From Micromonospora sp. WMMD882 (GTDB lineage Bacteria; Actinomycetota; Actinomycetes; Mycobacteriales; Micromonosporaceae): DNA of 64,000 nt. The position numbers and the translations under genes were made by a program. Shown one piece after another: positions 4,453 through 24,445 of the stretch. Positions within the stretch are counted from its first letter, which is position 1; each line of letters opens with the position of its first letter. Under the pieces are notes generated by a model, which was given only the letters and a program-made list of their open reading frames with translations, was not told the origin of the DNA and searched no databases. The stretch is taken from assembly GCF_027497255.1 (NCBI RefSeq), contig NZ_CP114903.1, positions 4,650,001 to 4,714,000 of the forward strand, given 5' to 3'.

Positions 4453-4477
4453 CCACCGGTGAGCAGGTACGGCGACA

Positions 4478-4507
4478 TTGTCCGCGGCCAGCGCGTGCCG
4501 CTAGCAT
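4478..4507 (+). promoter_or_regulatory. promoter candidate for the exporter/ATP-grasp transcript
   Basis: TTGTCC (4478-4483) and TAGCAT (4502-4507) are separated by 18 bp, a sigma-70-like spacing. It would give an untranslated leader of about 110 nt that includes the small leader reading frame at 4623. Confidence 0.4.
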
Positions 4508-4622
4508 GGGGAGCCGTCCCGGCGGCGGGCGTCGCCGCGGTCCACTGTGACCCGCGCCGGTCCGGTCGACCGGGGCGAATCGTGACTTCCTGAGCGCGAG
4601 CGCAGGGCGAGGAGATCAGGGC

Positions 4623-4673
4623 ATGCGCATTCCTGCCGGGTGGTCGGTGACATCGGCGGAACGCCCGTGGTGA
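4623..4673 (+). CDS. 16-codon leader reading frame overlapping the MFS gene
   Basis: An ATG at 4623 is preceded by AGGAG at an 8-nt spacing and encodes MRIPAGWSVTSAERPW. Its TGA (4671-4673) overlaps the GTG at 4670 that starts the exporter frame. The exporter start itself has no good RBS, so translation by coupling from this leader is plausible. It has no run of regulatory codons, so I do not claim attenuation. The alternative is a frameshift that separated the natural start from the exporter gene. Confidence 0.4.
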   Translation: MRIPAGWSVTSAERPW

Positions 4674-6136
4674 GGTTCCTGCGTCGCTACGTGCCGCGGG
4701 AGCCACAGATCCGTACGCTGGCCGTCGCCGCCTTCGTGGACTCGATCGGCAGCGGGCTCTTCCTCGCTCTCCTTCCGGTCTTCGTGGTGAAGGAGCTGCA
4801 CGTCCCGGCCACCCAGGTCGGCCTGGTGGTGGGGGCGGCCAGCGTGTTCGGGCTGGTGTCCCCGGTCCCCGCCGGCCACCTCGCCGACCGGTTCGGCGCG
4901 GCCCGTGTCTGGAGCGGGCTGCTGCTCACCCGGGCGGCCTGCTACACCGGGTTCCTGTTCGTCGACTCGCTGGCGCAGTACGCGGTCATCGCGTGCCTGT
5001 GCACGATGCTCGACCGGGCCAGCGGCACGGTGCAACAGGCGTACGTCGTGTCCCTGGCCGCCGGCAGCAACCGCTCCGAGTCGATGGCCGCCCTGCGCAC
5101 GGTGAAGAACATCGGGCTGAGCGTCGGGCTGGTGGGCGCCGGCGTGCTCATCGCGATCGGCGGCCGGGGGGCGTTCCTGGCCGGCTTCGCGGTCAACGCC
5201 GCCTCGTACCTGGTGCTGCTGAGCACGGTACGCACGATCGAACGGCGTCGACGCGCCGCCGCGGCGGCGACCACCGCCGTGCCTGCCCCGCCGCTGGGGA
5301 CGGCGGCGGAGACGCCCGCGGCCCCCAGCGCCGCCGACGGGCCCGGCCCACCGCCCGTGCCCGGCCCACCGTCGAAGCCGGGCGGCGGCCCCGCGTCACC
5401 GCTGCGCAACCGCGCGTACGTGCTCCTGTCGGCCGGCAACGCGATCCTCCTGCTGCACGACTCGGTGCTGTTCACCCTGCTCCCGCTCTGGGTGATCACC
5501 CGTACGTCGCTGCCGCACGGCCTCGTCGGTCCCCTGTTGGCGCTCAACACCGTGCTCACCGTCGCCGCGCAGGTGCCGTTGACCCGCTGGTCCGACGGCG
5601 TCCCGGCGGCCCGGCGGATGCTGCTGGTGGCGACGGCGCCGCTGTTGGGGGCGTGCGCGTTGTTCGCCGCCGCCGAGCCGTCGGCGCAGGTGCTGGCCGT
5701 CCTGCTGGTCGCGGCGGCGGTGGTGCTGCTCACCGCCGGGGAGAACCTGCACACCGTGGGCGCGTTCGAGTTGGCGCACCAGTTGGCCCCGGACCGTCAC
5801 GCCGGGAGGTACCTCGGCCTGTTCAACGTCGGCGTGTCGGCGCAGTTGGTCTTCGGGCCGCCGGTGATGACCGGGCTGGTGCTGCGTGGCCCGCTGGGGT
5901 GGCTGGGCCTGGCCGCCGCGTTCGCGGCCGGCGCGGGCGCGGTGCTGGCCGGGGCCCGCGACCCGGACCGCCGCCGGACCAGCCCGTGGCGTCCGGGTGG
6001 GCCGCGCCGGCTCGCGCCGCCGCCCACCGTGGCGGCGACCCCTCCCGACGGCCGGGCCGGCCTCGGCGTTCCAGCCCCGACCGCGGCCACCGGTGCGGGC
6101 GCGTCGACGGTCGGGTCCACGACAGAGCAGAGCTGA
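4670..6136 (+). CDS. MFS transporter, probable exporter of the phosphonate cluster
   Basis: About 488 residues with a major facilitator layout: roughly 12 hydrophobic helices, an MFS loop motif GHLADRFGAAR between helices 2 and 3, and a Pro/Gly/Ala-rich central linker (about residues 215-245) between the two halves. It probably uses the proton gradient to export the cluster product or an intermediate. It starts at GTG 4670 (or in-frame GTG 4667 or 4640), coupled to the upstream leader frame. It ends 10 bp before the ATP-grasp gene with which it must be co-transcribed. The C-terminal tail (about 450-488) is disordered and Pro/Ala-rich. Confidence 0.8.
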   Translation: MRFLRRYVPREPQIRTLAVAAFVDSIGSGLFLALLPVFVVKELHVPATQVGLVVGAASVFGLVSPVPAGHLADRFGAARVWSGLLLTRAACYTGFLFVDSLAQYAVIACLCTMLDRASGTVQQAYVVSLAAGSNRSESMAALRTVKNIGLSVGLVGAGVLIAIGGRGAFLAGFAVNAASYLVLLSTVRTIERRRRAAAAATTAVPAPPLGTAAETPAAPSAADGPGPPPVPGPPSKPGGGPASPLRNRAYVLLSAGNAILLLHDSVLFTLLPLWVITRTSLPHGLVGPLLALNTVLTVAAQVPLTRWSDGVPAARRMLLVATAPLLGACALFAAAEPSAQVLAVLLVAAAVVLLTAGENLHTVGAFELAHQLAPDRHAGRYLGLFNVGVSAQLVFGPPVMTGLVLRGPLGWLGLAAAFAAGAGAVLAGARDPDRRRTSPWRPGGPRRLAPPPTVAATPPDGRAGLGVPAPTAATGAGASTVGSTTEQS

Positions 6137-6146
6137 AGGAGAGACG

Positions 6147-7424
6147 ATGCCGGGCACCGAACACGTGCTGATCGTCGGTGGCGGCCGGGAGATCCCCCAG
6201 TTGCTGCGGCGGCACCGGGCGGGCAGCCGTACGTCGGTGCTGTGCCAGCTCTCCCTGCTGCCGAAGCTGCGTGACATCGACGAGCATGAACGCGTTGTCG
6301 GGCTGCGCGCGGACGCCTCCGACGAGGAGTGGATCGCGGCGGCGCGGCAGGTCCACCGGGCCGACCCGGTCACCCGGATCGCCTCCTTCGGCGAGCGTGA
6401 CCAGCGACGGCTGGCTGTCGTCGGCAGCGCCCTGGGGCTGTCCACGCACTCCGTCCGGACGGTGGCGGCGGTGCACGACAAGCACCTGATGCGGCAGCTC
6501 CTGGCCGACGCGGGGGTGGAGAAGGTCGCCGCCGTCCGGCTCGACGACGAGGCGGCCGTCACCGGCTGGGTGGACGCCAACCCGGGAGCCTGGGTGCTCA
6601 AACCGGTCGACGGCACGGCGAGCGCCGGGGTGGCGCTGGTCCGTACCCCCGGGGAGGCGGCGGCGGCCTACCGGCGCTGCGTGGCCACCGAGCACACCGG
6701 CCGACGGCACTCACCCGAGGTGCTCCTGGAGGAGTACCTGACCGGGCCGCAGGTGAGCGTCGAGTCGCTGTCCGAGGACGGCGAACACGTGGTGGTGGCG
6801 GTCACCGGGAAGTACTCCGACCCGGCGACGTTCGTCGAGCTGGGGCACGTGGTGCCGGCGGTGGTCGACGATGCCGCCCGCGCCGGACTCGTGGCGCACA
6901 CCGGCGCGGTGCTCGACGCGCTCGGGGTGCGGGACGGCACCTGTCACACCGAGTTCGTGCTAACGCCCGACGGACCCCGCACCATCGAGACCCACCTGCG
7001 GGTGGCCGGTGACGAGATCCCCTACCTGGTACGGGACGCGACCGGGGTGGACCTGGTCGGGTGCGTGGTGCGGCAGACCTTCGGCGAGCGGGTGCTGCCC
7101 GAGGTGCGCCGTACGCTGGCGGCGACCCCGGCGCGTCCGCAGGCGATCTGGTTCGGCGTCGCGCCCTGTGCCGGCGAGGTGGACCGGTGGGAGGGGCTCG
7201 ACGAGGCCCGCGCGGCCGACCCGTCGGTGACGCTGACGCTGGAGGCCGGGCCCGGTGACCGGGTCGCGCCGCTGGGCGACTCGCACTCCCGGGTGGTGTG
7301 GGCCCGCGCCGAGGGCGGGACCGCCGACGAGGCGCTGCGTCGCGCGTACGCGGCCGTCGCCGCGTGCCGGCTGGTGGTGACCGTGCCGACCGTCGCCGGC
7401 GGTGGTGTGCGCGGCGCCCTGTGA
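6147..7424 (+). CDS. ATP-grasp ligase 1 (carboxylate-amine ligase family)
   Basis: A 425-residue ATP-grasp protein. The N-terminal preATP-grasp part begins VLIVGGGREIP. The ATP-binding part includes VLKPVDGTASAGVALV and the EEYLTG hinge region, and the metal-binding part includes a TIETHLRVAGDEIP segment. The family joins a carboxylate, activated as acyl phosphate, to an amine. Here that would fit forming an amide between phosphonoacetate and an amino acid, or adding a further amino acid; substrates cannot be read from sequence. The ATG at 6147 follows AAGGAGAG. It is a clear paralog of the protein at 8660-9892 (shared segments such as FGE.DQ.R, VSVE..SE.GEH and FVELGHVV). Confidence 0.85.
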   Translation: MPGTEHVLIVGGGREIPQLLRRHRAGSRTSVLCQLSLLPKLRDIDEHERVVGLRADASDEEWIAAARQVHRADPVTRIASFGERDQRRLAVVGSALGLSTHSVRTVAAVHDKHLMRQLLADAGVEKVAAVRLDDEAAVTGWVDANPGAWVLKPVDGTASAGVALVRTPGEAAAAYRRCVATEHTGRRHSPEVLLEEYLTGPQVSVESLSEDGEHVVVAVTGKYSDPATFVELGHVVPAVVDDAARAGLVAHTGAVLDALGVRDGTCHTEFVLTPDGPRTIETHLRVAGDEIPYLVRDATGVDLVGCVVRQTFGERVLPEVRRTLAATPARPQAIWFGVAPCAGEVDRWEGLDEARAADPSVTLTLEAGPGDRVAPLGDSHSRVVWARAEGGTADEALRRAYAAVAACRLVVTVPTVAGGGVRGAL

Positions 7425-7441
7425 CCGGTGACGGGATCCGT

Positions 7442-7498
7442 CCGGCGCGGCCGTCGACGCCCCGGGCGCGGCGCCCGGGGCGTCGACGGCCGCGCCGG
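7442..7498. terminator. 57-bp perfect palindrome, bidirectional terminator between convergent genes
   Basis: 28-bp arms (7442-7469 and 7471-7498) are exact reverse complements around one base at 7470. It lies between the stop codons of the plus-strand ATP-grasp gene (7424) and the minus-strand carbamoyltransferase gene (7499), so it can terminate both transcripts. Arm length and perfection are unusual for a terminator. Confidence 0.75.
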
Positions 7499-8542
7499 TC
7501 AGGAGAGGACGTCGCGGGTGTCGAGCACGCCGAAGCGCTCCGGTCGGTACCAGCGGGCCTCGCGGTCGGTGTCGGTGACCTGGTCGGCGACGTCGAGGAC
7601 GAGCGCGAACAGGGCCATCCGGACCGGGATGCCGTTGTCGGTCTGCCGGAAGATCGCGAGCGCGGAACGGTCGTTGAGGTCGTCGGCGAGCTCGCTCACG
7701 CCACCGCGGCTGTCGCGCGGGAGCGGGTGCATCAGCACGGTGCCGGGCCGGCACACCTTGTCGTAGAGGGCGGCGTCGATCCGGAACCGGTCCTTGCTGG
7801 CGGCGGCCGAGCTGCCCTGCGGCAACCGCTCCTGCTGCACCCGCGTGGCGTAGACGACGTCCACGTCGCGGATGCCCTCGGCCAGGTCGTCGGTCAGCTC
7901 GACCGTGTGTCCCCGCTGCTGGAGCTTGCGTACCAGGTCGTCCGGGATCTGTAGCTCCGGGGGCGCGACGCAGACGAACGTCAGGCCGCTCTCCAGGGCC
8001 AGCAGCCTGGTGAGGCTGTGCACCGTCCGCCCGTAGCGGAGGTCACCCACCACCGCGATCCGCATGCCGCCCAACCCGCCGGGACGCAGCCCCCGCTCGC
8101 GGCACAGCGTGTACAGGTCGAGCAGCGCCTGGGTGGGGTGTTCGCCCGGCCCGTCGCCACCGTTGATCACCGGGACGTTGGTCGCGGCGGCGAACTCCGC
8201 CACCGCGCCCTCCTCCGGGTGCCGTACGACGAGGATGTCCATGTATCCGCTGACCACCCGGCTGGTGTCGTAGACCGACTCGCCCTTGGCCATCGAGGAG
8301 AAGGCGAAACCCGTGGTCTCACGGACGTATCCGCCGAGGCGGTTGAACGCCGCCCCGAAGCTCAGCCGCGACCGGGTGCTCGGCTCGAAGAACAGGTTGC
8401 CGAGCACCGCTCCTTCGAGCACGCGCGTCGTCCGCTCCCGCCGCGCGTACGGCAGCATCCGGTCCGTCACCTCGAACAGCCGCTGGATGTGGGCCAGCTC
8501 GAACTGCTCCACGGAAAGAACGTGCGCACCGGCGAACACCAC
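7499..8542 (-). CDS. aspartate carbamoyltransferase homolog inside the phosphonate cluster
   Basis: A 347-residue protein with every catalytic element of aspartate carbamoyltransferase (carbamoyl phosphate + L-aspartate to N-carbamoyl-aspartate). Carbamoyl-phosphate loop FFEPSTRS (S55-T56-R57-S58, where E. coli has STRT), 80s-loop Lys K86 (AKGE), R107 (RHP), H135 and Q138 (HPTQ), R172 (YGRTVHS), R234 (TRVQQERL) and the 240s-region HPLPR (272-276). HPLPR is the E. coli form, whereas usual actinobacterial PyrB proteins carry HPGP/HPAP there, so it does not look like a recent copy of the housekeeping gene. No other pyrimidine gene is nearby. Its place in a phosphonoacetate pathway suggests a drug-insensitive target copy for self-resistance; a biosynthetic carbamoylation is the alternative. 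GTG start at 8542 (or 8539) behind AAGGG. Confidence 0.85.
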   Translation of the reverse strand: MVFAGAHVLSVEQFELAHIQRLFEVTDRMLPYARRERTTRVLEGAVLGNLFFEPSTRSRLSFGAAFNRLGGYVRETTGFAFSSMAKGESVYDTSRVVSGYMDILVVRHPEEGAVAEFAAATNVPVINGGDGPGEHPTQALLDLYTLCRERGLRPGGLGGMRIAVVGDLRYGRTVHSLTRLLALESGLTFVCVAPPELQIPDDLVRKLQQRGHTVELTDDLAEGIRDVDVVYATRVQQERLPQGSSAAASKDRFRIDAALYDKVCRPGTVLMHPLPRDSRGGVSELADDLNDRSALAIFRQTDNGIPVRMALFALVLDVADQVTDTDREARWYRPERFGVLDTRDVLS

Positions 8543-8659
8543 TCGACCGCCCTTCTGTCACCTGCCCTGCGGCGGAGCCGTCGGGCACTGCCACCGCAGA
8601 AGCTTACCGAGGTCAGACGCCCGACCCGACATCGGCCGTCGGCGGCGGCGAGGGCGGGC

Positions 8660-9892
8660 TCAGGCCGGCGCGACGGTGACGGTGAGCGTGTCGACGGCCC
8701 GTCGGGCGGCCTCCTCGGCCGTCGGGCCGTCGTCCGCCACGGCGGTGCAGTAGCCGACCCGGTCGACGGAGTCCCGGATGGGGGCGGTCAGCTCGTCGCC
8801 CGGATCCTTGAGGAGCGTGCACCCGGTGACGAGGGGCAACGCCTCGGCCTGCCCGGTGTGCTCCACCGAGACGAGCCGCCCGGACCGGGGCGGCGTCAGG
8901 TACCGGATGGCGCCGGCCCGGCGTGGCCGGTCGGGCGCGGCCAGCAACGCGTCGAGGCGCGGCAGCACCCGTTCGCCGAGCACCTGCCGGACGGCCAGCT
9001 CCACCAGGTCGATGCCGGCCGCCGCGGCCAGCAGGGCGGGGATCTGGTCTCCGCCGGCCCGGACGTGGGTCTCCACCACCCGGGGCCCGTCGTCGGTGAG
9101 GATCAGCTCGGTGTGGGTCGGGCCGTGGGTGATCCCCAGGGCGTCCAGGGCCTGCCGCACGTGGGCGACCACCCGGCCGTCGTCGGGGCCGGGCTCGCGG
9201 ACCACGTGCCCCAGCTCGACGAAGTTGTCGTCCTTGATCTTGCGGGTGACGCCGACGACCCGGTGCTCACCCTGCTCCGAGATGGCCTCGACGCTCACCT
9301 CGACGCCGACCAGGAACGGCTCGACCACGATCGGGGATCCGGGCGGCGCGGACCGGACCGCCCGGCCGAACCCTTCCGCCAGGTCGGCGGGATCGTCGAC
9401 CCGCACGATGCCGAGGCTGCCGGTGCCGCGACGCGGTTTGAGGATCAGCGGGAGCCCGTGCTGGTCGGCGAAACGGCGCAGCTCCTCGACTGTGGAGACG
9501 GTCGTCGAGGGCACCTCCTCGACACCGGCGGCGCTGAGCCGGCGGCGCATCGCCACCTTGTCGTACACCGCCGCGACGACCTCTTCAGGGTGGAACGGCA
9601 GTCCCAGCGCGGACGCGATGGCCGCCGCGCGGTCCTGGTCGAACTCGCCGAACGCCCCGACGGCCTCGATCGGCTGCCGCCGGTGCACGCACTGCGCGAG
9701 CGCCACCCACTCCGCCGGGTCGGCGGCCTCGTCGAGAGCGATCACCCGCGCGGAACCGGTGGGGTGGCGGACCTTGGCCAGTCGTTGTGTCGCGACGAGA
9801 GTGGTGATGCTGGCGGCGGGGTCGAGGCGACGCAGCACCGGCGTGACGTCCCGGGCGCCGGCCACGACGAGCACGTGCTTGAACACCGTCAT
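8660..9892 (-). CDS. ATP-grasp ligase 2, paralog of the 6147 gene
   Basis: A 410-residue ATP-grasp protein: N-terminal VLVVAGARDV, ATP-binding LILKPRRGTGSLGIVRV (about 150-166), VEPFLVG hinge, and VVETHVRAGGDQIP (about 275-288) with the metal-binding acidic and Asn/Asp region. It has the same architecture and many of the same motifs as the 6147 product. The two may act in sequence on different amino acids. It is divergent from the PEP mutase gene across a 289-bp control region and may share a transcript with the carbamoyltransferase gene downstream (117-bp gap). The ATG at 9892 has GGAG close upstream. Confidence 0.85.
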   Translation of the reverse strand: MTVFKHVLVVAGARDVTPVLRRLDPAASITTLVATQRLAKVRHPTGSARVIALDEAADPAEWVALAQCVHRRQPIEAVGAFGEFDQDRAAAIASALGLPFHPEEVVAAVYDKVAMRRRLSAAGVEEVPSTTVSTVEELRRFADQHGLPLILKPRRGTGSLGIVRVDDPADLAEGFGRAVRSAPPGSPIVVEPFLVGVEVSVEAISEQGEHRVVGVTRKIKDDNFVELGHVVREPGPDDGRVVAHVRQALDALGITHGPTHTELILTDDGPRVVETHVRAGGDQIPALLAAAAGIDLVELAVRQVLGERVLPRLDALLAAPDRPRRAGAIRYLTPPRSGRLVSVEHTGQAEALPLVTGCTLLKDPGDELTAPIRDSVDRVGYCTAVADDGPTAEEAARRAVDTLTVTVAPA

Positions 9893-10181
9893 CAGGGCTC
9901 CACATCGAAAGTCGCGAGTCGTTGGTCCGAAACAGACCTGACCACGCGTGCGCCACGGCTGTCCAGCAGGTTGATGCCAGGAAAACGATCAGCGACCTAG
10001 TGTATACAAGCGCGCTACGGCGTGGCAGGCTGAGCCGACCGCTGTCGATCTTCATCGGGGCCCGTCGGCGTGCCCGATCCCGGTCGGCCCGTCACGCGCG
10101 TGCCCGCCCCGGCGTCATCACGTCACCGCGTCACTGTGGACGCTGACGACCACCACGACAACGTGATCGTGAGGAGAACGG
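9893..10181. promoter_or_regulatory. divergent control region between ATP-grasp 2 and PEP mutase genes
   Basis: These 289 bases carry no gene and must hold both divergent promoters. A perfect palindrome TGTATACA at 10001-10008 resembles the half-sites bound by some GntR-family proteins and could also serve as a -10 region. GAGGAG at about 10171 is the RBS of the PEP mutase gene. Confidence 0.4.
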
Positions 10182-11132
10182 ATGAGCAAGGCCAGCAGCC
10201 TCGCCGACCTGTTCCAGCGTTCCTCGCTGGACTTCCTGATGGGAGCGCACGACGCCCTGTCCGCGCAGATCGCGCAGGAGTGCGGCTTTCCCGGTGTGTG
10301 GGTCTCGGGGCTCGGGCTCTCGGCGTCCAGCGGCCTGCGGGACTCCAACGAGCTCTCCTGGACCCAGGTCATGGAGCGCACCGAGCTGCTGGCGGACCGG
10401 GTCTCGGTGCCGGCGCTCGTAGATCTCGACACCGGCTACGGTGACTTCAACAACGTCCGGCTGGTGATGCGCAGGCTGCAACGGGCCGACGTGGGCGGCG
10501 GGTGCATCGAGGACAAGCTGTTCCCGAAGACCAACTCGTTCGTCGGCTCCGAACAGGAACTGGCCGACCCGCACGAGTTCTGCGGCCGGATCAAGGCGGC
10601 CAAGGACACCGTCGGGGACGACGTCTTCCTGGTGGCCCGGTGCGAGGCGCTGGTCGCCGGCCGCTCGATGACCGAGGCCGTCGACAGGTGCGGCCGGTAC
10701 GCCGAGGCGGGCGCCGACGCCGTCCTGATCCACTCGAAGATGACCTCACCCGACGAGATCCTCAACTTCATGGCCTCGTGGGACCGACGCGTCCCGGTGG
10801 TGATCGTGCCGACCAAGTACTCGAAGGTCCCCGCGGAGGTCTTCGAGCGGGCCGGGATCTCGGTGGCGATCTGGGCGAACCAGACCCTGCGGGCGGCGAT
10901 CCGCAGCATGGAACAGCTCTGTATGGCCCTGCGCGAGCAGCGCACGATGCTGCACCTGGAAGGCGAGATCGCCGACCTGTCGCGGGTGTTCGACCTGACC
11001 AACAACGCCGAGCTGGAGCTGGCCAAGGAGCTGTACGCGAGCCCCCCGGCGGAGAGCCCACTGAACACGCTGGCCGACGACGGCGACGCCGCCGGGGACC
11101 AGTTGGTCGGCGCGGGCCCGACATCGGCCTGA
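10182..11132 (+). CDS. pepM: phosphoenolpyruvate mutase (phosphonate cluster entry enzyme)
   Basis: A 316-residue member of the isocitrate lyase/PEP mutase superfamily. Residues 110-119 read EDKLFPKTNS, the EDKxxxKxNS signature that separates true PEP mutases from lyases. DLDTGYGD (about 85-92) supplies the magnesium-binding region. The enzyme rearranges PEP to phosphonopyruvate, forming the C-P bond. The equilibrium favours PEP, so a following step must pull it; the decarboxylase at 15553 does this. The ATG has a strong GAGGAG RBS. It is the first gene of a tightly packed plus-strand operon. The C-terminal 30 residues are Ala/Gly/Asp-rich and look non-essential. Confidence 0.95.
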   Translation: MSKASSLADLFQRSSLDFLMGAHDALSAQIAQECGFPGVWVSGLGLSASSGLRDSNELSWTQVMERTELLADRVSVPALVDLDTGYGDFNNVRLVMRRLQRADVGGGCIEDKLFPKTNSFVGSEQELADPHEFCGRIKAAKDTVGDDVFLVARCEALVAGRSMTEAVDRCGRYAEAGADAVLIHSKMTSPDEILNFMASWDRRVPVVIVPTKYSKVPAEVFERAGISVAIWANQTLRAAIRSMEQLCMALREQRTMLHLEGEIADLSRVFDLTNNAELELAKELYASPPAESPLNTLADDGDAAGDQLVGAGPTSA

Positions 11133-11181
11133 CCCGGATGGGCAGCAGGACGACACCGGTCCCGGACGCCGGCACGACGCC

Positions 11182-16707: not shown

Positions 16708-16722
16708 CCCCCGGGAGAAGCC

Positions 16723-17964
16723 ATGGCACTCCTTTTCACCCGTACCAATTCCCTCCTGTTGCTGGTGCCGAAGACCGGCAGCACCTGGATCCGGGCGAAG
16801 GTCCGGCAACTCGGGCTGGCCGTCGAGACGGTCGGTGATCCGGCGATGCGGGATCACGACCTGCTCGACCAGTACGACCGGTCCGCGTACCGGCACGTCG
16901 GGGCCTTCGTCCGTGACCCGGTCGAGTGGTACCGGTCGTACTGGGCCTACCGGATGGAACGGGGTTGGCGTCCGCAGTATCCGCTGGACGAGCAGTGCGC
17001 CAGCGACGACTTCGAGACGTTCGTCCGCCGGGCCGTGTCGATTCTGCCGGGCGCGCTGGGGAACATCTACACCTCCTACGTGGGCCCGCCCGAGGCGGAG
17101 ATCGACTTCGTCGGGCGGCAGGAGCGCCTGGTCGACGACTTCGCCCGGTTCCTGCGCCTCGCCGGTGAGGAGTTCGACGAGGCGACGTTGCGGGAGGGCA
17201 GCCGGGTCAACGCGACGACGACGGTGCCGGACTATCCGGAGGAGCTGAAGGAGCTCGTCACCCTGTCCGAGTGGGACACGATGCGGCGGTTCGGCTATCT
17301 CGCCGACCGGCCCGACCCGTACGGGCTGGCGGAGATGCAGGCACGCTTCCCCGCGTACGCGGAGGACCACCGGCTGCTGACCCTCTGGACGGAGAAGATC
17401 CACTGGGCGCCGGACGACGTGAAGCGGGCGGCCGGCCGACCGATCCGCCAGCAGACCCGGCACGCCCGGGTGCACAGCAACTTCGCGCTGCTCGCCCAGC
17501 ACAAGTACGGCGACCACGACTACGCCGAACAGCGGTACCGGCAGGCGCTCGAACTGGACCCCGACCACCCGCGCACGCTGTGCAACTACGCGCTGTTCCG
17601 CTGGCAGGCCCGGGCGGAGCCGCAGGAGGCCCGCCGGCTGATGCTGCGCGCGCTGGCCGGTCGTCCGTCGCACCCGTACACCCTGGGCAAGCTGGCCCGG
17701 CTCTCCGACCGCGCGCTCGGCGACCCGGAGCTGGCCGAGGTGCTGTACCGGCAGAGCCTCGCCGGCAACGACCGGCAGCAGGACGTCCCCGTGGAGCTGG
17801 CCGAGCTGCTGGTGCGGCTGGGACGCCCGGGCGCGGCGGTGGCGCTGCTCACCGAGCGCGCCGGCCGCCCGGACGCGAGCGAACTCACCCGGTCGGCCCT
17901 GGCGCTGCTGCGTCAGCGCGTCGAGCCGTCCGACCCCGCCCAGCGCCAACCAGCGTTGGCCTGA
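16723..17964 (+). CDS. sulfotransferase-like protein with C-terminal TPR repeats
   Basis: 413 residues. The N-terminal half looks like a PAPS-dependent sulfotransferase: PKTGSTWIR (16-24) is the 5'-phosphosulfate loop and RDPVEWYRSYW (about 64-74) the 3'-phosphate-binding region. After about residue 245, TPR-like helical repeats follow (for example YGDHDYAEQRYRQALELDP). It could sulfate a hydroxyl or amine of the product, with the TPR region binding a partner or a peptide. A sulfotransferase is unexpected in a phosphonate cluster. ATG at 16723 with a GGGAGAAG RBS. Confidence 0.7.
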   Translation: MALLFTRTNSLLLLVPKTGSTWIRAKVRQLGLAVETVGDPAMRDHDLLDQYDRSAYRHVGAFVRDPVEWYRSYWAYRMERGWRPQYPLDEQCASDDFETFVRRAVSILPGALGNIYTSYVGPPEAEIDFVGRQERLVDDFARFLRLAGEEFDEATLREGSRVNATTTVPDYPEELKELVTLSEWDTMRRFGYLADRPDPYGLAEMQARFPAYAEDHRLLTLWTEKIHWAPDDVKRAAGRPIRQQTRHARVHSNFALLAQHKYGDHDYAEQRYRQALELDPDHPRTLCNYALFRWQARAEPQEARRLMLRALAGRPSHPYTLGKLARLSDRALGDPELAEVLYRQSLAGNDRQQDVPVELAELLVRLGRPGAAVALLTERAGRPDASELTRSALALLRQRVEPSDPAQRQPALA

Positions 17965-17996
17965 CGAACCGAATCCCCTGAGGAAGGACACCACGA

Positions 17997-18872
17997 ATGT
18001 CTGGCGACGACTTCTCCGGCGAGAGCATCGTCCGTAACCACGTCGATGCCGGCGGCAGGTCACTCGACGCGCTCGTCGCCGAGGCACGCGCGACGCTCGA
18101 CCGCGACCGCATCGTCCTGATCCGTGACTTTCCGCTCGACCCCGACCGCTACCTGGCCTTCCTGGGCCGGTTCGGCACCCCGTTGGCGAACTACTCGTCC
18201 CGCAGCGACCTGGCCAAGGACGACCCGCACCCGCAGATCAACCGGGTCAAGTACAAGCCGAAGGGCCAGTACGTCAAGCAGTCCGTGCACTACGTCGGTG
18301 GCGAGCTGCGGCCACACTCCGCGCGTTCCTGGTGCGACCCCCGGCCGGCGTACTTCGCGATGCTGATGGTCGAGCCGGGCTGGCGGGACACGCCGGAGGG
18401 GCAGCGCGGCGAGTCGGTGGTGCTGGCCTGGCGGCGGCTGTTCGAGGAGTTGGCGGCCCGGGACGGCGAGACGTTCGAGGCGCACCTGGCCCACCTCACC
18501 GGCACCCCGGTCACCTTCGAGGCCAACAACGTCCGTGAGGAGCTGTCGCACCTGCCGCTGTGCTACCCGCTCGCCGACGCCGCCGGTCCGCTCGACCTGG
18601 GCGTACGGATGAAGCAGGACATCCAGGACAAGCTTCCGGGTCTGCGTGACCAGATCGCCGACTACGAGGGCTACCGGCGCGCCCTGGACTACGTGATCGA
18701 GAACGCCGCCGAGGAGAAGTTCCAGGCGTGCTTCCCGATGGACAGCGGTGACCTGCTGCTGCTGGACAACAACCGGTTCGCGCACGGCCGCCGGAAGATC
18801 GTCGGCGAGCGCCCGCAGGACGGCGGCACCGCGGTCAACAACCGGGAGCTGTGGAGCGTCACCGTCGCCTGA
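17997..18872 (+). CDS. TauD/clavaminate-synthase-fold Fe(II)/2-oxoglutarate enzyme with HxA instead of HxD/E
   Basis: 291 residues of the TauD/TfdA superfamily. The proximal iron motif, normally H-x-D or H-x-E, reads H107-S108-A109 (codons CAC TCC GCG at 18315-18323). The distal His is H263 in NNRFAHGRR, and a likely 2-oxoglutarate Arg is in the NNRELW segment near the C-terminus. Loss of the carboxylate ligand is the hallmark of Fe/2OG halogenases such as SyrB2, where the site binds chloride. It also occurs in enzymes that changed role. Whether this protein halogenates, hydroxylates or is inactive is open. ATG follows GAGGAAGG; next gene 30 bp downstream. Confidence 0.75.
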   Translation: MSGDDFSGESIVRNHVDAGGRSLDALVAEARATLDRDRIVLIRDFPLDPDRYLAFLGRFGTPLANYSSRSDLAKDDPHPQINRVKYKPKGQYVKQSVHYVGGELRPHSARSWCDPRPAYFAMLMVEPGWRDTPEGQRGESVVLAWRRLFEELAARDGETFEAHLAHLTGTPVTFEANNVREELSHLPLCYPLADAAGPLDLGVRMKQDIQDKLPGLRDQIADYEGYRRALDYVIENAAEEKFQACFPMDSGDLLLLDNNRFAHGRRKIVGERPQDGGTAVNNRELWSVTVA

Positions 18873-18902
18873 CCGTCCCGACCACAACCGAGGAGATTCC
18901 GC

Positions 18903-19121
18903 ATGACCAGCCCCGAGCCCACTTCCGCCGAGCCCACTCCCGCCGTCGACGGGGCCGCCCTGGCCGACAGTTGCGCCCAGCTCCAGGGTGAGCTGGACGC
19001 CCTGCTGCTGGGTCAGGACACCCAGCGGGCCGTCGACTCGTTGGACAACGCCGTCGCCTCGCTCAAAGAGGTGGAGCAGCGCAACGTGTCGTCGGTGCAG
19101 CTCGTCGCCCTCACCGACTGA
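18903..19121 (+). CDS. 72-residue orphan protein, possible precursor or carrier peptide
   Basis: A small gene with an excellent GAGGAG RBS, in step with its neighbours (30 bp after the oxygenase gene, 89 bp before the DUF1611 gene). The N-terminus (1-16) is Pro/Thr/Ser/Glu-rich, residues 17-60 look helical and heptad-like (ALADSCAQLQGELDALL, then LDNAVASLKEVEQ), and the tail ends VSSVQLVALTD. One Cys at about 24. No family is recognised. In a cluster with three ATP-grasp enzymes it could be a peptide scaffold or amino-group carrier, or a RiPP-like precursor; it might equally be a small structural partner. Function is unassigned. Confidence 0.65.
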   Translation: MTSPEPTSAEPTPAVDGAALADSCAQLQGELDALLLGQDTQRAVDSLDNAVASLKEVEQRNVSSVQLVALTD

Positions 19122-19210
19122 CCGGCCGACTGACCGACCGGACGGGTGGACGCGGCCGAGCGTCCGCCCGTCCCCGTACCGCCCAACCGCCCCACCGACG
19201 AAACAGGTAG

Positions 19211-20329
19211 ATGATGTCGTTGGCACCGACGAACGGCTGGCGCAGCCGTGCCGCAGGTCTCCCGGTCAAGCTGATCAACTCGTGTGTGCGGCGGGCCGCC
19301 GACCTGCTCGACGGACGCGAGCAGCTCGTCTCCCGCAATCCGACGCCCCGCGACGGTGATCTCGTCGTCGTGCGGTGCCTGGCCGGCGCCGGCGCGTACG
19401 ACCACGTCGAGGACGAGACCGGCATGCCGGTCAAGCTGTACCAGGGTGACCTGTTCGTGGCGACGCTCGGCACCCGGCGCTCCGGCACCAACCTCATCGG
19501 CGAGGTGCCGACGACCCCCGTCGCGGCCGGCGACCGGCTGGACCTCGTCGCGCAGGGCGGCCTGGCGGCCAGGTGCACGGCGGTCCCGGCCTACTACGGC
19601 GCCCGCGCGTTGCCGTTGGAGGTCGTCGGGTTCCCGGCGGACGCCGCCGGACGCGTCCGCAACATCGACGAGGCGCCGGTGGTGCCCGTCCGCGACAGCC
19701 GACGGCCGCGCGTCGACACCCCCGTGCTGTTCGTCGCCGGCACCTCGGCCGAGGTGGGCAAGACCACGCTCGTCTGCCAGCTCAACATCGTGGCCAGGCA
19801 GCACCGGCCAGGTCTGCGTACCGCGGCCGTCAAGGCGTGCGGCACCGGACGGGCGAAGGACGTGCTGAGCTACCGCGCCGCGAACTACGACGTGGTCACC
19901 GACTTCGTCGACGCCGGCATGCCGTCGACCTACGGCGTGGACCCGGACCGGTTCCGGGCCATGCTGTACACGCTCGTCGAACACTGCGCGGAACGCGTCG
20001 ACCTGATCGTGGTGGAGATCGGCGGGGACTTCCTGGAGGCGCGGGCCCCCGAAGCGCTGGAGATCATGGCGGAGCTCGACGCCGCCTGCGTGATGATGGT
20101 CAACGACGCGATGGGCGCGCTGGAGGGCCTGCGTCAGCTCCGGGCGCTCGGCCGGGCGCCGCTCATGATCGGCACGTACCGGCAGAACCTGCACGCCCTC
20201 GCCGACCGCCTCGCCGTACCCGTGGAGCAGGTCGTGAACTCCACCGACGCGGACGCGCTGCGCCGCCTCCTCGACGCGATCCACCCGGCGCGGCCGACCG
20301 CCGACCTGCTCGCCGGGGCGACCGGCTGA
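19211..20329 (+). CDS. DUF1611 family P-loop protein (DgcN-like)
   Basis: 372 residues. An N-terminal domain (about 1-165) precedes a P-loop GTSAEVGKTT (about 177-186) and an acidic VVEIGGDFLE segment (about 263-272) typical of DUF1611. Members include DgcN, described in D-glutamate metabolism as an N-acetylating enzyme, so an acyl or amino-acid modifying role is possible here. The role in this cluster is unknown. ATG ATG at 19211-19216 follows AGGTAG; ends one base before the next start. Confidence 0.7.
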   Translation: MMSLAPTNGWRSRAAGLPVKLINSCVRRAADLLDGREQLVSRNPTPRDGDLVVVRCLAGAGAYDHVEDETGMPVKLYQGDLFVATLGTRRSGTNLIGEVPTTPVAAGDRLDLVAQGGLAARCTAVPAYYGARALPLEVVGFPADAAGRVRNIDEAPVVPVRDSRRPRVDTPVLFVAGTSAEVGKTTLVCQLNIVARQHRPGLRTAAVKACGTGRAKDVLSYRAANYDVVTDFVDAGMPSTYGVDPDRFRAMLYTLVEHCAERVDLIVVEIGGDFLEARAPEALEIMAELDAACVMMVNDAMGALEGLRQLRALGRAPLMIGTYRQNLHALADRLAVPVEQVVNSTDADALRRLLDAIHPARPTADLLAGATG

Positions 20330-20330
20330 C

Positions 20331-21062
20331 ATGGACGAGATCCTGCTCCTCGCCGCGGTGGCGCTGCTGGCGGTGGTCCAGTCGGTGTTCGGGGTCGGCC
20401 TGCTGCTCTTCGGCACGCCCCTGCTGCTGATGGCCGGCTACTCCTACCTCGAACTGCTCTACGTCCTGCTGCCGGCGTCGGCCACGTTGAGCACGCTGCA
20501 ACTGGTCTTCGACCACTCGGTACGGCCGCGCGAGGTCGGTGGCTACGCGCTGTGGGTGGTGCCGGCGATCCTGGTGGGCACGGTGACGTCACTGCTCTAC
20601 CTGACCGGCCTCGACATCCGGATTCCGGTGGCGGTGCTGCTCGCCGTCACCGGGGTGCTGCGGCTGAGCCGCTGGACCCGGCAGAGGTTGCAGACGGCGT
20701 GCGTGGCGGCCGGTCGGCCGGCGTTGAGCCTGATCGCCCTCGCGCACGGGCTGACCAACATGGGCGGCGGCCTGCTGGCCGTGTACGCGGGCGCGCTCAG
20801 CGACCAGAAACGCGAGGTCCACCGGACGGTGGCGGTGGTCTACCTGCTGTTCGCCGGGAGCCAACTGGTGGCGCTGTACGTCCTGCACGGCCCGCCGACG
20901 CCGGATCCGCGTCTGCTCATGTCGACGGTCGGCGTGGCCGTGCCGTACCTGCTGCTGGGCCGGCGGGTGTTCCAGGCCATGTCGGACCGCCGGTACCAGG
21001 CCGCCTTCTCCGCCTTCATGCTGTGCTGCGCGGGCGTGCTCACCTGGCAGGCCGCGCAGTGA
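20331..21062 (+). CDS. TauE/SafE family membrane transporter
   Basis: 243 residues with about eight hydrophobic helices and the two-half arrangement of TauE/SafE proteins (FGVGLLLFGTPLLL in helix 1, ALAHGLTNMGGGLLAVYAG in the second half). Characterised relatives export small anionic sulfur compounds such as sulfite or sulfoacetate. Phosphonoacetate is the phosphorus analogue of sulfoacetate, so export of a phosphonate acid or of a sulfonated product is a sensible guess. It sits in the cytoplasmic membrane. Starts one base after the DUF1611 stop and overlaps the dehydrogenase start. Confidence 0.75.
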   Translation: MDEILLLAAVALLAVVQSVFGVGLLLFGTPLLLMAGYSYLELLYVLLPASATLSTLQLVFDHSVRPREVGGYALWVVPAILVGTVTSLLYLTGLDIRIPVAVLLAVTGVLRLSRWTRQRLQTACVAAGRPALSLIALAHGLTNMGGGLLAVYAGALSDQKREVHRTVAVVYLLFAGSQLVALYVLHGPPTPDPRLLMSTVGVAVPYLLLGRRVFQAMSDRRYQAAFSAFMLCCAGVLTWQAAQ

Positions 21063-22546
21063 GCGCCGCGCAGCAGGGCGCCGCTGGGCAGAGCGCCGGG
21101 CAGCAGGGCGCCGCCTGGCGGTACCGGCACGAGGGGCCGCGCGTCGACGGGAAGACGCTGACCCGGGACCGCACGTTCCCGGTCCGCTACCCGCACACCG
21201 GTGAACCGGTCGCCGACGTCGCCATGGCGACCCCCGACGACGTACGGCAGGCGGTGCGCGTCGCCGCGAGGTTCCGTGACCGGCTGAGCCGGCACGACCG
21301 GTACACGATCCTGATGCGGACCCGTGAGCTGATCGACAGCCGGCGCGCGGAGTGGGCCCGCCTGATCACGATGGAGTCCGGCCTGTGCCTGAAGGACACC
21401 GGTCACGAGGTGGGCCGGGCCTGTGACGTCCTGCTGTTCGCCGCCAACCAGGCGCTCGTCGACGACGGCGAGATCTACTCGTGTGATCTGACCGCGCACG
21501 GTCGGGCCCGCAAGGTGTTCACCACGCGGGAGCCGCTGCTCGGCGTGATCGGCGCGATCACGCCGTTCAACCACCCGCTCAACCAGGTGGTGCACAAGGT
21601 GGCGCCGGCCGTCGCGACGAACAACCGGCTCGTGCTCAAGCCGTCGGAGAAGACCCCGCTGGCCGCGTTGGCCTTCGCCGACGTCCTCTACGAGGCGGGC
21701 CTGCCGCCCCCGATGTTCCAGGTGGTCACCGGTGATCCCGCCGAGATCGGTCCGGCGCTCGTCGAGGACCCGCTCGTCGAGCTGGTGACGTTCACCGGCG
21801 GCACCGAGGTCGGCAAGCGGGTGGCCGCCCGCGCCGGGTACCGCCGTACCATCGTCGAGCTCGGCGGGACCGACCCGGCGATCGTGCTCGACGACGCGGA
21901 CCTGGCGGAGACGGCGCGCCTGGTCCTCCAGGGGGCCTGCAAGAACTCGGGGCAGCGCTGCACGGCGGTCAAACGGATCCTGGTGCAGGCCGGGGTCGCC
22001 GACGAGTTCGTGGCCCTCCTCACCGAGCAGGCGCGGCAGTGGCGCACCGGTGACCCGCTCGATCCCCGGACCGACATCGGCACCGTCGTCGACGAGCCGG
22101 CGGCCCGGCGGATCGAGGCCGCGGTCGACGACGCCGTCCGGGCCGGCGCGGTGCTCCGCCACGGCGGCGTCCGCTCCGGCGCGCACTACGCTCCGACCGT
22201 GCTCGACCAGGTAACGCCCACCATGGCCGTGGTGACCGAGGAGGTCTTCGGCCCGGTCGCCCCGGTGGTGCGGTTCACCACCGACGACGAGGCCGTCCGG
22301 ATCGCGAACTCCAGCCGGTACGCCCTGTCGGCCGGCGTATTCACCCGGGGCCTGGACCGGGCGCTGCGCTTCGTCGACCAACTGCACGCCGGCACCGTCA
22401 ACATCGGCGAGGTTCCCGGCTACCGGATCGAGTCGACGCCGTTCGGCGGGATCAAGGACTCCGGGCTCGGCTACAAGGAGGGCGTGGTCGAGACCATGAA
22501 GGCGTACACCAACGTCAAGACCTTCTCGCTGCCCTGGCAGCCATGA
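21059..22546 (+). CDS. aldehyde dehydrogenase, phosphonoacetaldehyde dehydrogenase (PhnY-like)
   Basis: 495 residues of the NAD(P)-dependent aldehyde dehydrogenase family. VELGGTDP holds the general-base Glu and NSGQRCTA the catalytic Cys (about residue 302). The C-terminus (STPFGGIKDSGLGYKEGV) is very like PhnY and PhpJ enzymes that act on phosphonoacetaldehyde. With PEP mutase and the decarboxylase it completes PEP to phosphonopyruvate to phosphonoacetaldehyde to phosphonoacetate. The GTG at 21059 overlaps the TauE/SafE stop. The first 18 residues are a Gln/Gly/Ala-rich extension not typical of the family. Confidence 0.88.
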   Translation: MSAAQQGAAGQSAGQQGAAWRYRHEGPRVDGKTLTRDRTFPVRYPHTGEPVADVAMATPDDVRQAVRVAARFRDRLSRHDRYTILMRTRELIDSRRAEWARLITMESGLCLKDTGHEVGRACDVLLFAANQALVDDGEIYSCDLTAHGRARKVFTTREPLLGVIGAITPFNHPLNQVVHKVAPAVATNNRLVLKPSEKTPLAALAFADVLYEAGLPPPMFQVVTGDPAEIGPALVEDPLVELVTFTGGTEVGKRVAARAGYRRTIVELGGTDPAIVLDDADLAETARLVLQGACKNSGQRCTAVKRILVQAGVADEFVALLTEQARQWRTGDPLDPRTDIGTVVDEPAARRIEAAVDDAVRAGAVLRHGGVRSGAHYAPTVLDQVTPTMAVVTEEVFGPVAPVVRFTTDDEAVRIANSSRYALSAGVFTRGLDRALRFVDQLHAGTVNIGEVPGYRIESTPFGGIKDSGLGYKEGVVETMKAYTNVKTFSLPWQP

Positions 22547-22570
22547 CCTGACCAGCCACTGGAGACGTAC

Positions 22571-23815
22571 GTGCGCATCCTCGTCCTGCACCAGAACAAG
22601 TTCGACCGCCTCGGGTACGCCGACGCCTTCGACCACGCCCGCCACGACGTCACGTACGCCGGCACCGCCGAGTACATCGGGAACATCCCGGCGGACGTCC
22701 GCTGCGCGAAGGTGGTGCTGGAGCCGGAGCGGTCCGTGGTCGACCAGCTCCGTCCCCGACTACGGGGGTGGCCGCCGTTCGACCGGATCCTCACCCGGCA
22801 CGAGCTGCTCATCGCCCCGGCGGCCGAGCTGCGGGCCGAGTTCGGCGTCCCCGGCATGCGACCCGACCTGGCCCGCAACTTCCGCGACAAGGTGGCGATG
22901 AAGACCGCCGTCGCCGCCCGGGGTCTGCGGGTTCCCCGGTTCGTGCCGGCGACCGACCTGCTCACCGGGGACGTGACGCCGCCGTGGCGGGGCCGCACCG
23001 TCGTCAAGCCACGCGGCGGGGCCGGCAGCCGCGGGGTGACCCTCTGCGAGGACGTCCGGCAGGCCCACGAGCTGGTCGCCCGGGAGCAGCGCACGGACGC
23101 CGGATTCGCCGGGCGGTACGAGGTCGAGGAGTACGTCGACGGGGACCTGTGGCAGATCGACGGCTACCTGTTCCGTGGCGAGCCGGTCGCGATCCAGGCC
23201 AGCCGGTACGTGGGGAGCTGCCTGTCGTTCGAGCAGGGCCGGCCGCTCGGCGTGGTGCAACGGCCGCACCCCGAGCTGGAGGCGTTCACCGTGGACTGCC
23301 TGCGCGCGCTCGGCGGCGACACGCTCACCTTCCACCTGGAGGCCATCACCACCCCGCAGGGCCCGGTGTTCCTGGAGGTGGCCGCCCGGTGCGGCGGCGG
23401 CTACACGGTGACCACCTTCCGGCGGCGGACCGGGATCCACCTGCACACCCTGGACATGGCCACCGAGGTGTCGGGCGCGCTCGCCACCGGGCACATCCAC
23501 CGGCCGGAGACCACCGACCTGCACGGGGAGTTCCAGTACCCCGGCCACGTCTACGGCGGTGCGCCGATCACCGTCGACGTGCCGGCCGGGCTGCTCGACG
23601 ACCCGCGCGTCCTGACGTACCAGGTGTACCCGGTCGACAGGCCCACCCCGGTGAAGGGCTCCTACCGTCCGGAGAACCTTCCGCTGTCCGGCCTGGTCAC
23701 CGGCCAGGATCCGGACGTGCTGGAGAGCTGGCTGGTCGACCTGTTCGCCCGGGTCACCGTCACCCCGCGCCTGGGCGCGCCGGCTCCGCTCGTCGCCGCG
23801 CAGGCGGCCCCGTGA
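22571..23815 (+). CDS. ATP-grasp ligase 3
   Basis: 414 residues with an ATP-grasp core: VVKPRGGAGSRGVTLC (about 140-155), VEEYVDGDLWQIDG (about 182-195) and metal-binding LEVAARCGGGY (about 267-277). It begins RILVLHQNKFDRLGYADAFDH, a different N-terminal domain from the other two ATP-grasp proteins, so it has a separate origin. It probably forms an amide or ester bond late in the pathway. GTG start with GGAGACG upstream; overlaps the Nudix gene by four bases. Confidence 0.85.
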   Translation: MRILVLHQNKFDRLGYADAFDHARHDVTYAGTAEYIGNIPADVRCAKVVLEPERSVVDQLRPRLRGWPPFDRILTRHELLIAPAAELRAEFGVPGMRPDLARNFRDKVAMKTAVAARGLRVPRFVPATDLLTGDVTPPWRGRTVVKPRGGAGSRGVTLCEDVRQAHELVAREQRTDAGFAGRYEVEEYVDGDLWQIDGYLFRGEPVAIQASRYVGSCLSFEQGRPLGVVQRPHPELEAFTVDCLRALGGDTLTFHLEAITTPQGPVFLEVAARCGGGYTVTTFRRRTGIHLHTLDMATEVSGALATGHIHRPETTDLHGEFQYPGHVYGGAPITVDVPAGLLDDPRVLTYQVYPVDRPTPVKGSYRPENLPLSGLVTGQDPDVLESWLVDLFARVTVTPRLGAPAPLVAAQAAP

Positions 23816-24270
23816 CGGAACGGGTCCGCGCCATCCTCCTCACCCCGACCGACGGATGGTTGGTGTTCCGGCGTACCCGACCCGACCGGGACGTCTACTG
23901 GTCCCTGCCGGGCGGGGGCGTGGAGCCCGACGATCCCGATCGCCGGGCCGCGCTGCTGCGGGAGGTACGCGAGGAGGTGGGCGGCACGGCCCGGATCCAC
24001 AGCCTCCGGTACGTCCTGGACACGCCGGCCGGCCGCCAGTACCTCTACCTCTGCCGGATCGACACGTGGTGCGAGGCGGACCGGACCGGGGCGGAGTTCA
24101 GCGACCCGACGGCGGGCGGGTACCTGCTGGAGACCCGGCGACTGGACCACCGGACGCTGGCCGCGATCACCCTGAGCCCACCCGGTCTGGCCGACCTGCT
24201 CGCCGCGGACCTGCGCCGGTCCGATGGCGACCTGTTCCGCCTGCCGGGCCTGCCGGAGGGCCCGGACTGA
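23812..24270 (+). CDS. Nudix hydrolase
   Basis: 152 residues. The Nudix box is present as LPGGGVEPD followed by REVREEVGG (about 31-55); the REUXEEXG core is intact, but the first Glu position of the box is occupied by Pro/Asp. It should cleave a nucleoside diphosphate linked to another group. It may remove a nucleotide from a pathway intermediate or clean up side products. It is the last gene of the plus-strand phosphonate operon: GTG start coupled to the ATP-grasp stop, and a strong terminator 90 bp downstream. Confidence 0.8.
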   Translation: MTERVRAILLTPTDGWLVFRRTRPDRDVYWSLPGGGVEPDDPDRRAALLREVREEVGGTARIHSLRYVLDTPAGRQYLYLCRIDTWCEADRTGAEFSDPTAGGYLLETRRLDHRTLAAITLSPPGLADLLAADLRRSDGDLFRLPGLPEGPD

Positions 24271-24359
24271 CGCAACCCCCACCCGAGGCAGCGCCCTCCC
24301 CAAGGCAGCACCCGGAAGCAGAAACCTCCCCACGGACCGCGCGGACAGTGCCGGCCGTA

Positions 24360-24433
24360 GGTTTCCGGGGGGAGCCCGCCCACTCCGGGCGGTCAGGCTT
24401 GATCCCTGCGTGGGTGGGCTCCCCCCGGAAACC
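24360..24433. terminator. bidirectional terminator at the end of the phosphonate cluster
   Basis: 24-nt arms (24360-24383 and 24410-24433) pair fully in RNA with one G-U, around a 26-nt loop. It lies between the Nudix gene (plus) and the short aldehyde dehydrogenase-like gene (minus), so it closes both long operons and marks the right edge of the cluster. Confidence 0.85.
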
Positions 24434-24445
24434 CCCCACGCGGTC

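Follow-up and report, generated by a model that had tools for sequence, protein, structure and literature searches.

Introduction

Aspartate carbamoyltransferase (ATCase) is an essential enzyme of pyrimidine synthesis and the classic target of the inhibitor N-phosphonoacetyl-L-aspartate (PALA). Target duplication is a general kind of self-resistance in antibiotic biosynthetic gene clusters (BGCs). Among phosphonates derived from phosphonoacetate, the O-phosphonoacetic acid serine cluster of Streptomyces sp. NRRL F-525 was reportedly described by Freestone et al. in 2017. Here we analysed a 64,000-nucleotide stretch of the genome of Micromonospora sp. WMMD882 (contig NZ_CP114903.1, positions 4,650,001 to 4,714,000), hereafter called the window, which harbours a phosphonate BGC containing an ATCase gene (atc). 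The initial annotation of this stretch, made from its letters alone, proposed a PALA-like phosphonoacetyl-amino acid as the product. On balance, our analyses lead us to favour, by a narrow preference, a phosphonoacetate-derived, PALA-type inhibitor of ATCase as the product, with the cluster ATCase acting as a tolerant, self-protecting isozyme that has replaced the housekeeping enzyme encoded by pyrB.

As cited in a 2025 genome-mining paper (PMC12723261), the NRRL F-525 cluster resembles that of the window in having a phosphonoacetate-derived amino acid product and an aldehyde dehydrogenase homologue. The same paper presents a phosphonoacetate-derived cluster of Kitasatospora fiedleri, whose product structure is given there as unknown. 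By its description in that source, to which our comparison is restricted, the Kitasatospora fiedleri/Streptomyces sp. 31A4/MMG1121 cluster shares with the window a phosphoenolpyruvate (PEP) mutase (PepM), a phosphonopyruvate decarboxylase (Ppd) and a PhnY-like dehydrogenase, but its Ppd is split in two genes. K. fiedleri also has genes for ATP-grasp and TauD family proteins, a pyridoxal phosphate (PLP) aminotransferase and the supply of 3'-phosphoadenosine-5'-phosphosulfate (PAPS), the latter likewise found beside the Nocardia clusters described below. The main text of that paper, which attributes two phosphonate clusters to N. tenerifensis DSM 44704, has no word starting with 'carbamoyl'. PALA itself was developed by chemists in 1971, as recounted in PMC12002100. 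Among the matches listed in the open-access literature, we found neither natural PALA nor an ATCase-linked phosphonate cluster; most subscription papers are outside this scope, and novelty is unproven.

Results

A phosphonate cluster predicted to make phosphonoacetate

The WMMD882 genome (G000) consists of one contig and is 99.25% complete. The cluster unit spans positions 4457-24272 of the window, regardless of strand, with 17 genes between 4640 and 24270, and it is conserved end to end in a sibling genome of the same genus (G339). We compared four clusters, those of the window, G339, Nocardia tenerifensis (locus L006, record NBRC 101015) and Nocardia colli (locus L043). All genes named in the initial annotation, including those for PepM, Ppd, the dehydrogenase, three ATP-grasp ligases and ATCase, are present; to these we added genes for an AMP-ligase-like enzyme, an S9 peptidase, a major facilitator superfamily (MFS) transporter and TauE-like, Nudix and P-loop proteins. 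Genes of the window's cluster described below lie on the plus strand unless stated otherwise.

The PepM protein (10182-11132; PF13714, 186.9 bits) harbours the EDKLFPKTNS motif at residue 110, as first annotated, which fits the EDKx5NS signature of PepM-dependent phosphonate clusters. Its closest solved relatives are PEP mutases (1m1b, E = 1.3e-81), and its TIGR02320 score of 305.6 is slightly under the model cut-off of 319.55. Ppd (15553-16707; TIGR03297, 339.8 bits) and the PhnY-type phosphonoacetaldehyde dehydrogenase (21059-22546; TIGR03250, 724.2 bits) pass their respective cut-offs of 312.5 and 635.65. The dehydrogenase has SGQRC at residue 297, and among solved structures it is closest to 4i3t (E = 6.6e-155). 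PepM would generate phosphonopyruvate, Ppd would convert it to phosphonoacetaldehyde, and the dehydrogenase would yield phosphonoacetate. Given these family-level matches and the established reactions of the three families, phosphonoacetate is a well-supported predicted product, in keeping with the route put forward in the initial annotation.

An adenylate-forming (AMP-binding) enzyme is also encoded in the cluster (11182-12414; PF00501, 36.4 bits for a cut-off of 29.9). At each Nocardia locus, a single open frame covers both this enzyme and PepM (705 and 718 residues; L006 5021-7135 and L043 5009-7126), which ties the adenylating enzyme to the pathway.

The cluster ATCase

The product of atc (7499-8542, minus strand) is an ATCase homologue, as originally proposed, with a TIGR00670 score of 286.6 bits that passes the cut-off of 236.95; its top NCBIfam scores, 481 for PRK11891 and 474.1 for PRK08192, are below the cut-offs of these models (560 and 512, respectively). 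The gene is located inside the unit in the window and in G339 and directly at the cluster end in N. tenerifensis, hence in three of the four clusters. Between the window and G339, its non-synonymous divergence (Ka = 0.035) is the lowest of the 16 cluster genes, out of 17, with usable values.

A phylogenetic tree unites the cluster ATCases from the window, G339 and N. tenerifensis in a single clade (100/100), apart from the PyrB sequences. Second ATCases of Burkholderia paludis, Paraburkholderia bannensis, Pandoraea terrigena and Mycobacterium sp. KBS0706 join this clade in a larger group (100/98), whose internal order is unsettled, and the tree comes with a long-branch warning. We dropped the label 'proteobacterial' for this group, as one of its four outside members is named Mycobacterium sp. 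KBS0706 in its record and in the NCBI taxonomy. Second ATCases 57-61% identical to the cluster enzyme were found in four of the five genomes tested, the fifth, a Pseudomonas, having none, and an HPLPRDSR insertion is common to them and to the cluster ATCases. A general link of the group with phosphonate genes was rejected, because no other cluster gene was found in the stretch of roughly 20 kb examined in three of these genomes. The second ATCase gene of P. bannensis (L066 20298-21170) is about 9 kb from a ppd gene and about 11 kb from a pepM gene, probably by coincidence. G339 encodes a further carbamoyltransferase-like protein (L117, G339:C1:4715647-4716537) on a long branch, which groups neither with ATCases nor with ordinary ornithine carbamoyltransferases (OTCs).

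Of 14 residues of Escherichia coli ATCase that we take to be substrate or PALA contacts, 13 are kept in the cluster copies. The exception is Thr55 (E. coli numbering), which is replaced by Ser58 in the cluster ATCase. This residue belongs to the SxRT motif, a family hallmark with some variation that is reported to be chiefly responsible for binding the phosphate of carbamoyl phosphate (PMC4581275). In our alignment of 32 carbamoyltransferases, the Thr is changed to Ser in all three cluster copies, whereas it is present in the 29 others, as in E. coli; the second ATCases of B. paludis, P. bannensis, P. terrigena and Mycobacterium sp. KBS0706 thus have SxRT where the cluster copies have SxRS. 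The substitution is at most suggestive of insensitivity to the product.

Loss of the housekeeping pyrB gene

In G339, a housekeeping pyrB gene is located between pyrR and pyrC, in addition to the cluster ATCase gene. At the pyrR-pyrC junction of G000 (L126 8828-8860; G000:C1, about 2128830-2128860), a clean deletion of about 0.9 kb removes pyrB. The sequence CGGAGGG is found at both ends of the lost stretch in G339, and on either side of the gap the two operons remain collinear, with about 87% identity. The pyrR, pyrC, carA, carB and pyrD genes of G000 are open and recognised. Searches of this genome yielded a single ATCase, that of the cluster, and a single OTC. With a single ATCase, as judged from the genome sequence, the strain must use the cluster enzyme for pyrimidine synthesis, unless it is incapable of that synthesis.

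A carbamoyltransferase match of some kind is present in each of 160 same-genus genomes, and the cluster type of ATCase is confined to G000 and G339. The presence of pyrB was checked and confirmed in the four weakest of the 158 other genomes (G015, G452, G487 and G378); in the remaining 154 it was deduced from the E-value and, among the matches listed, from identities of 37-40%.

The retention of substrate residues and the position of the cluster enzyme as sole ATCase of a genome with an otherwise intact pyrimidine operon strongly suggest that it is still functional. The cluster resembles cases of target-duplication self-resistance in that it includes an additional copy, distinct in phylogeny, of an essential enzyme. 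Both copies are present in G339 and N. tenerifensis; unlike such cases, G000 has lost the housekeeping copy, and no ATCase other than that of the cluster was found. That the single ATCase of the genome is encoded in the cluster suggests that the product attacks ATCase. The loss of pyrB would be expected once the housekeeping enzyme no longer served the strain or did it harm; simple redundancy could also result in its loss.

ATP-grasp ligases, tailoring and export genes

The three ATP-grasp ligases announced by the initial annotation are encoded at 6147-7424 (ligase 1), 8660-9892 (ligase 2, minus strand) and 22571-23815 (ligase 3). Ligases 1 and 2 are paralogues with LAL_C2 domains (L-amino acid ligase type). 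Ligase 2 is found in all four clusters, and ligase 1 in those of the window and G339, with no separate copy at the two Nocardia loci. The ligase 3 gene is immediately downstream of the dehydrogenase gene in all four clusters, which makes its product the candidate phosphonoacetate ligase.

A protein with TPR repeats (16723-17964) is a putative PAPS sulfotransferase. It harbours PKTGSTW at residue 16 and RDPVEWYRSYW at residue 64, which we take to be the 5'-phosphosulfate-binding and 3'-phosphate-binding motifs, respectively, of sulfotransferases; across three sequences the former is invariant and the latter nearly so. Pfam matches are limited to the TPR repeats, with no sulfotransferase match up to E = 5, and a model built from a three-row alignment is of low confidence (mean predicted local distance difference test score, pLDDT, of 57). 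The sulfotransferase assignment is supported by genes found beside both Nocardia clusters, divergent from pepM, which encode a CysN-APS kinase fusion and a PAPS_reduct-domain (CysD-like) protein (L006 1620-4243; L043 1750-4379) and would supply PAPS. Among 394 genomes of the class, besides that of the window, weak relatives of the TPR protein were detected in one genome (G683, N-terminal half, two places), and none of the TauD-like protein described next.

The TauD-family protein (17997-18872; PF02668, 53.5 bits) is atypical. An HxD/E...H metal triad is the mark of Fe(II)/2-oxoglutarate oxygenases, and no HxD/E is shared among the TauD-like proteins of the four clusters: it occurs as H15-V-D in the window and, elsewhere in the protein, as H166-F-D in both Nocardia sequences, whereas G339 has none. 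Common to all four are H263, likely the second metal-site histidine, and H107-S-A109, in the stretch GELRPHSARSW, which suggests a candidate first metal site. An Ala in the HxD/E place is the mark of Fe/2-oxoglutarate halogenases such as SyrB2. The halogenase-like HSA motif is a lead only, because E. coli TauD does not align reliably in this part, and the alignment puts another His on the TauD motif.

The 72-residue orphan of the initial annotation (18903-19121) proved to be a real gene, conserved in the four clusters and with a Ka/Ks of 0.24 between the window and G339. Its EQRNVSSVQLVAL stretch is identical in all four. A scaffold peptide with a modified C-terminus is not favoured, as the terminal residues vary (TD, AD, D and DSPV), and a possible carrier role is suggested by no more than a weak resemblance to [D/G]SLD. 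In scans of the 17 cluster proteins, this protein and the P-loop protein had no match at E = 1e-3. The latter (19211-20329) has a P-loop domain (DUF1611/CbiA-like) in its C-terminal half, with weak Pfam matches that are all below cut-off. Its model, also from a three-row alignment, is poor (mean pLDDT of 55), and a fold search with it matched dethiobiotin synthetase, SRP GTPases and HypB alike, supporting, at low confidence, only the presence of a P-loop domain.

The remaining genes encode an MFS transporter, likely an exporter (4640-6136; PF07690, 134.7 bits), a HisC/CobD-like PLP aminotransferase or decarboxylase (12411-13457; PF00155, 80.4 bits; TIGR01140, 126 bits, below cut-off), an S9 (prolyl oligopeptidase-type) serine hydrolase, pop (13454-15556; PF00326, 149.8 bits; GGSYG at residue 495), a TauE/SafE-family membrane protein, possibly an exporter (20331-21062; PF01925, 48.5 bits), and a Nudix hydrolase (23812-24270; PF00293, 46.4 bits).

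Borders, genomic position and distribution

In a blastn comparison with 30 kb around the G339 cluster, the window aligned in two blocks, 4457-13482 (86.0%) and 13564-24272 (88.0%), positions 13483-13563 being unaligned, and no match was found outside 4457-24272. In G339, the counterpart of the left neighbouring stretch (2966-4453) is at 1.61 Mb, whereas the cluster lies at 6.17 Mb; no match to the right flank was found next to these two places, the only ones searched. As the match ends at the borders and a flank has its counterpart elsewhere, the cluster is a discrete unit placed differently in the two genomes. A cellulase family 5 protein with a ricin-type lectin domain is encoded to its left, outside the unit (2896-4452).

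Synonymous divergence (Ks) between the window and G339 is 0.25-0.36 for 16 of the 17 cluster genes, close to the values for pyrC, carA and carB (0.31-0.37), with 0.50 for pyrD. The Ka/Ks rows of pop and pyrR (1.9 and 2.2, respectively) were excluded and ascribed to faulty codon extraction.

The initial annotation placed the genes between a promoter region and a strong terminator. A long, G+C-rich, terminator-like hairpin (about 24360-24434, unstranded) follows the last gene, in a stretch that folds at -86.7 kcal/mol, but it has no T run, and a scan up to position 24399 gave 3 terminator-like sites for 2.8 expected. A scan for sigma-70-type promoters gave no match, and the promoter region is thus not confirmed.

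N. tenerifensis has 14 of the 17 cluster genes and N. colli 13. In addition to the separate ligase 1, the TauE-like and Nudix genes, present in both Micromonospora clusters, were not found at the Nocardia loci, nor was the ATCase gene in N. colli. The Nocardia MFS proteins are only 30-31% identical to that of the window. The N. tenerifensis alignments of the ligase 1 and P-loop queries cross a stop, and the called genes are open there. In N. colli, a sodium/hydrogen exchanger family gene (L043 19623-21005) is found at the place of the N. tenerifensis cluster ATCase gene.

The cluster is rare. Among 85 loci compared for the gene set, 80 of which correspond to Ppd relatives from our genome collection (the best 80 of 300), most of the set is present at the two Nocardia loci only. 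A P-loop orthologue at E = 1e-30 occurs in two of 150 Nocardia genomes, those of N. tenerifensis and N. colli. In 397 sampled genomes of the window's order, P-loop proteins with at least 90% identity are restricted to G000 and G339, the 25 other genomes with a match being at 30-37%, and 18 loci of the order with distant homologues (about 30-39%; L088-L105, about 4 kb each) have no other cluster gene. In all, the cluster forms a discrete unit in four genomes of two genera.

Discussion

The best reading of the cluster is that its product is a phosphonoacetyl-amino acid or peptide, probably sulfated and aimed at ATCase. We infer that one of the ATP-grasp ligases, most likely ligase 3, would couple phosphonoacetate with an amino acid, for which aspartate or something closely related to it is the likeliest choice, and that a bisubstrate inhibitor of ATCase of the PALA type would result. 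Ligase 2, and possibly ligase 1, may attach another amino acid that serves as a peptide mask. The TauD-like protein and the sulfotransferase may modify the product, and the MFS and TauE proteins may export it. The cluster ATCase, an isozyme of another clade with an altered SxRT motif, would still make carbamoyl-aspartate while protecting the producer, and in G000 it would have taken over from the deleted pyrB.

The initial interpretation is supported in part: the link between ATCase and PALA that it drew gains from the loss of pyrB, the sole ATCase and the cluster-only change in SxRT. Several observations weigh against the proposed scheme. The cluster ATCase is absent in one of the four clusters, that of N. 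colli, which weakens a strict self-resistance model; the sole ATCase of that species is an ordinary PyrB, and none of its aligned shared cluster genes has a stop. Possible explanations are a different or silent product in N. colli, or protection there through export or masking. The three related second ATCases that have no other cluster gene within the roughly 20 kb examined indicate that this type of enzyme is not specific to phosphonate clusters. The Thr-to-Ser change is conservative and the other listed PALA contacts are kept, so that PALA insensitivity is not predicted by the sequence. The specificity of ATP-grasp enzymes for phosphonoacetate or aspartate is not readable from sequence either, and the S9 peptidase, the P-loop protein, the AMP-ligase-like enzyme and the 72-residue protein have no pathway step assigned.

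These points bear on three alternatives. The most resilient, to which we give roughly one chance in five, holds that the cluster makes a phosphonoacetyl ester or peptide directed at some other target and that the ATCase is a passenger or a second isozyme, the redundant pyrB having been lost later. The existence of related second ATCases, three of the four having no other cluster gene in the 20 kb examined, and the N. colli cluster devoid of the enzyme speak for a passenger, whereas the location of the gene inside or directly at the end of the unit in the three other clusters and the phosphate-site substitution, absent from the related isozymes, speak against it. It is more doubtful that the ATCase is biosynthetic, supplying carbamoyl-aspartate as a building block or carbamoylating an intermediate: its gene is within the cluster and adjoins an ATP-grasp gene on the same strand, but it has the residues by which a true ATCase handles aspartate and carbamoyl phosphate, pyrimidine synthesis is its expected role with no other ATCase found in the host, and N. 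colli manages without a cluster copy. Decoration of the cell surface with a phosphonate head group, with no secreted inhibitor, is highly improbable, even though most bacterial phosphonate capacity is described as serving cell surfaces (PMC6697681) and the Nocardia PepM is part of a fusion with an activating enzyme, as no cytidylyltransferase, glycosyltransferase or lipid-transferase match was found among the 17 proteins, two of which have no match at E = 1e-3, and the MFS and ATP-grasp genes suggest a soluble compound.

A PALA-type inhibitor with a self-protecting cluster ATCase is the reading that we retain. In its fullest form, which we put forward tentatively and hold to be less likely than the core proposal, the cluster makes a natural PALA-type inhibitor that is sulfated and perhaps halogenated, given the HSA motif, and the resistant ATCase runs pyrimidine synthesis, so that the cluster is now essential. 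If this is true, nature would have reached the bisubstrate design of PALA, and enzymes for making phosphonoacetyl amides would be gained. The replacement of a housekeeping enzyme by a cluster enzyme would predict the target of a natural product from genome sequence alone, and the sole cluster ATCase of this strain offers a direct test of the mode of action. For Micromonospora sp. WMMD882, it would mean that a secondary-metabolite cluster has turned indispensable to its host.

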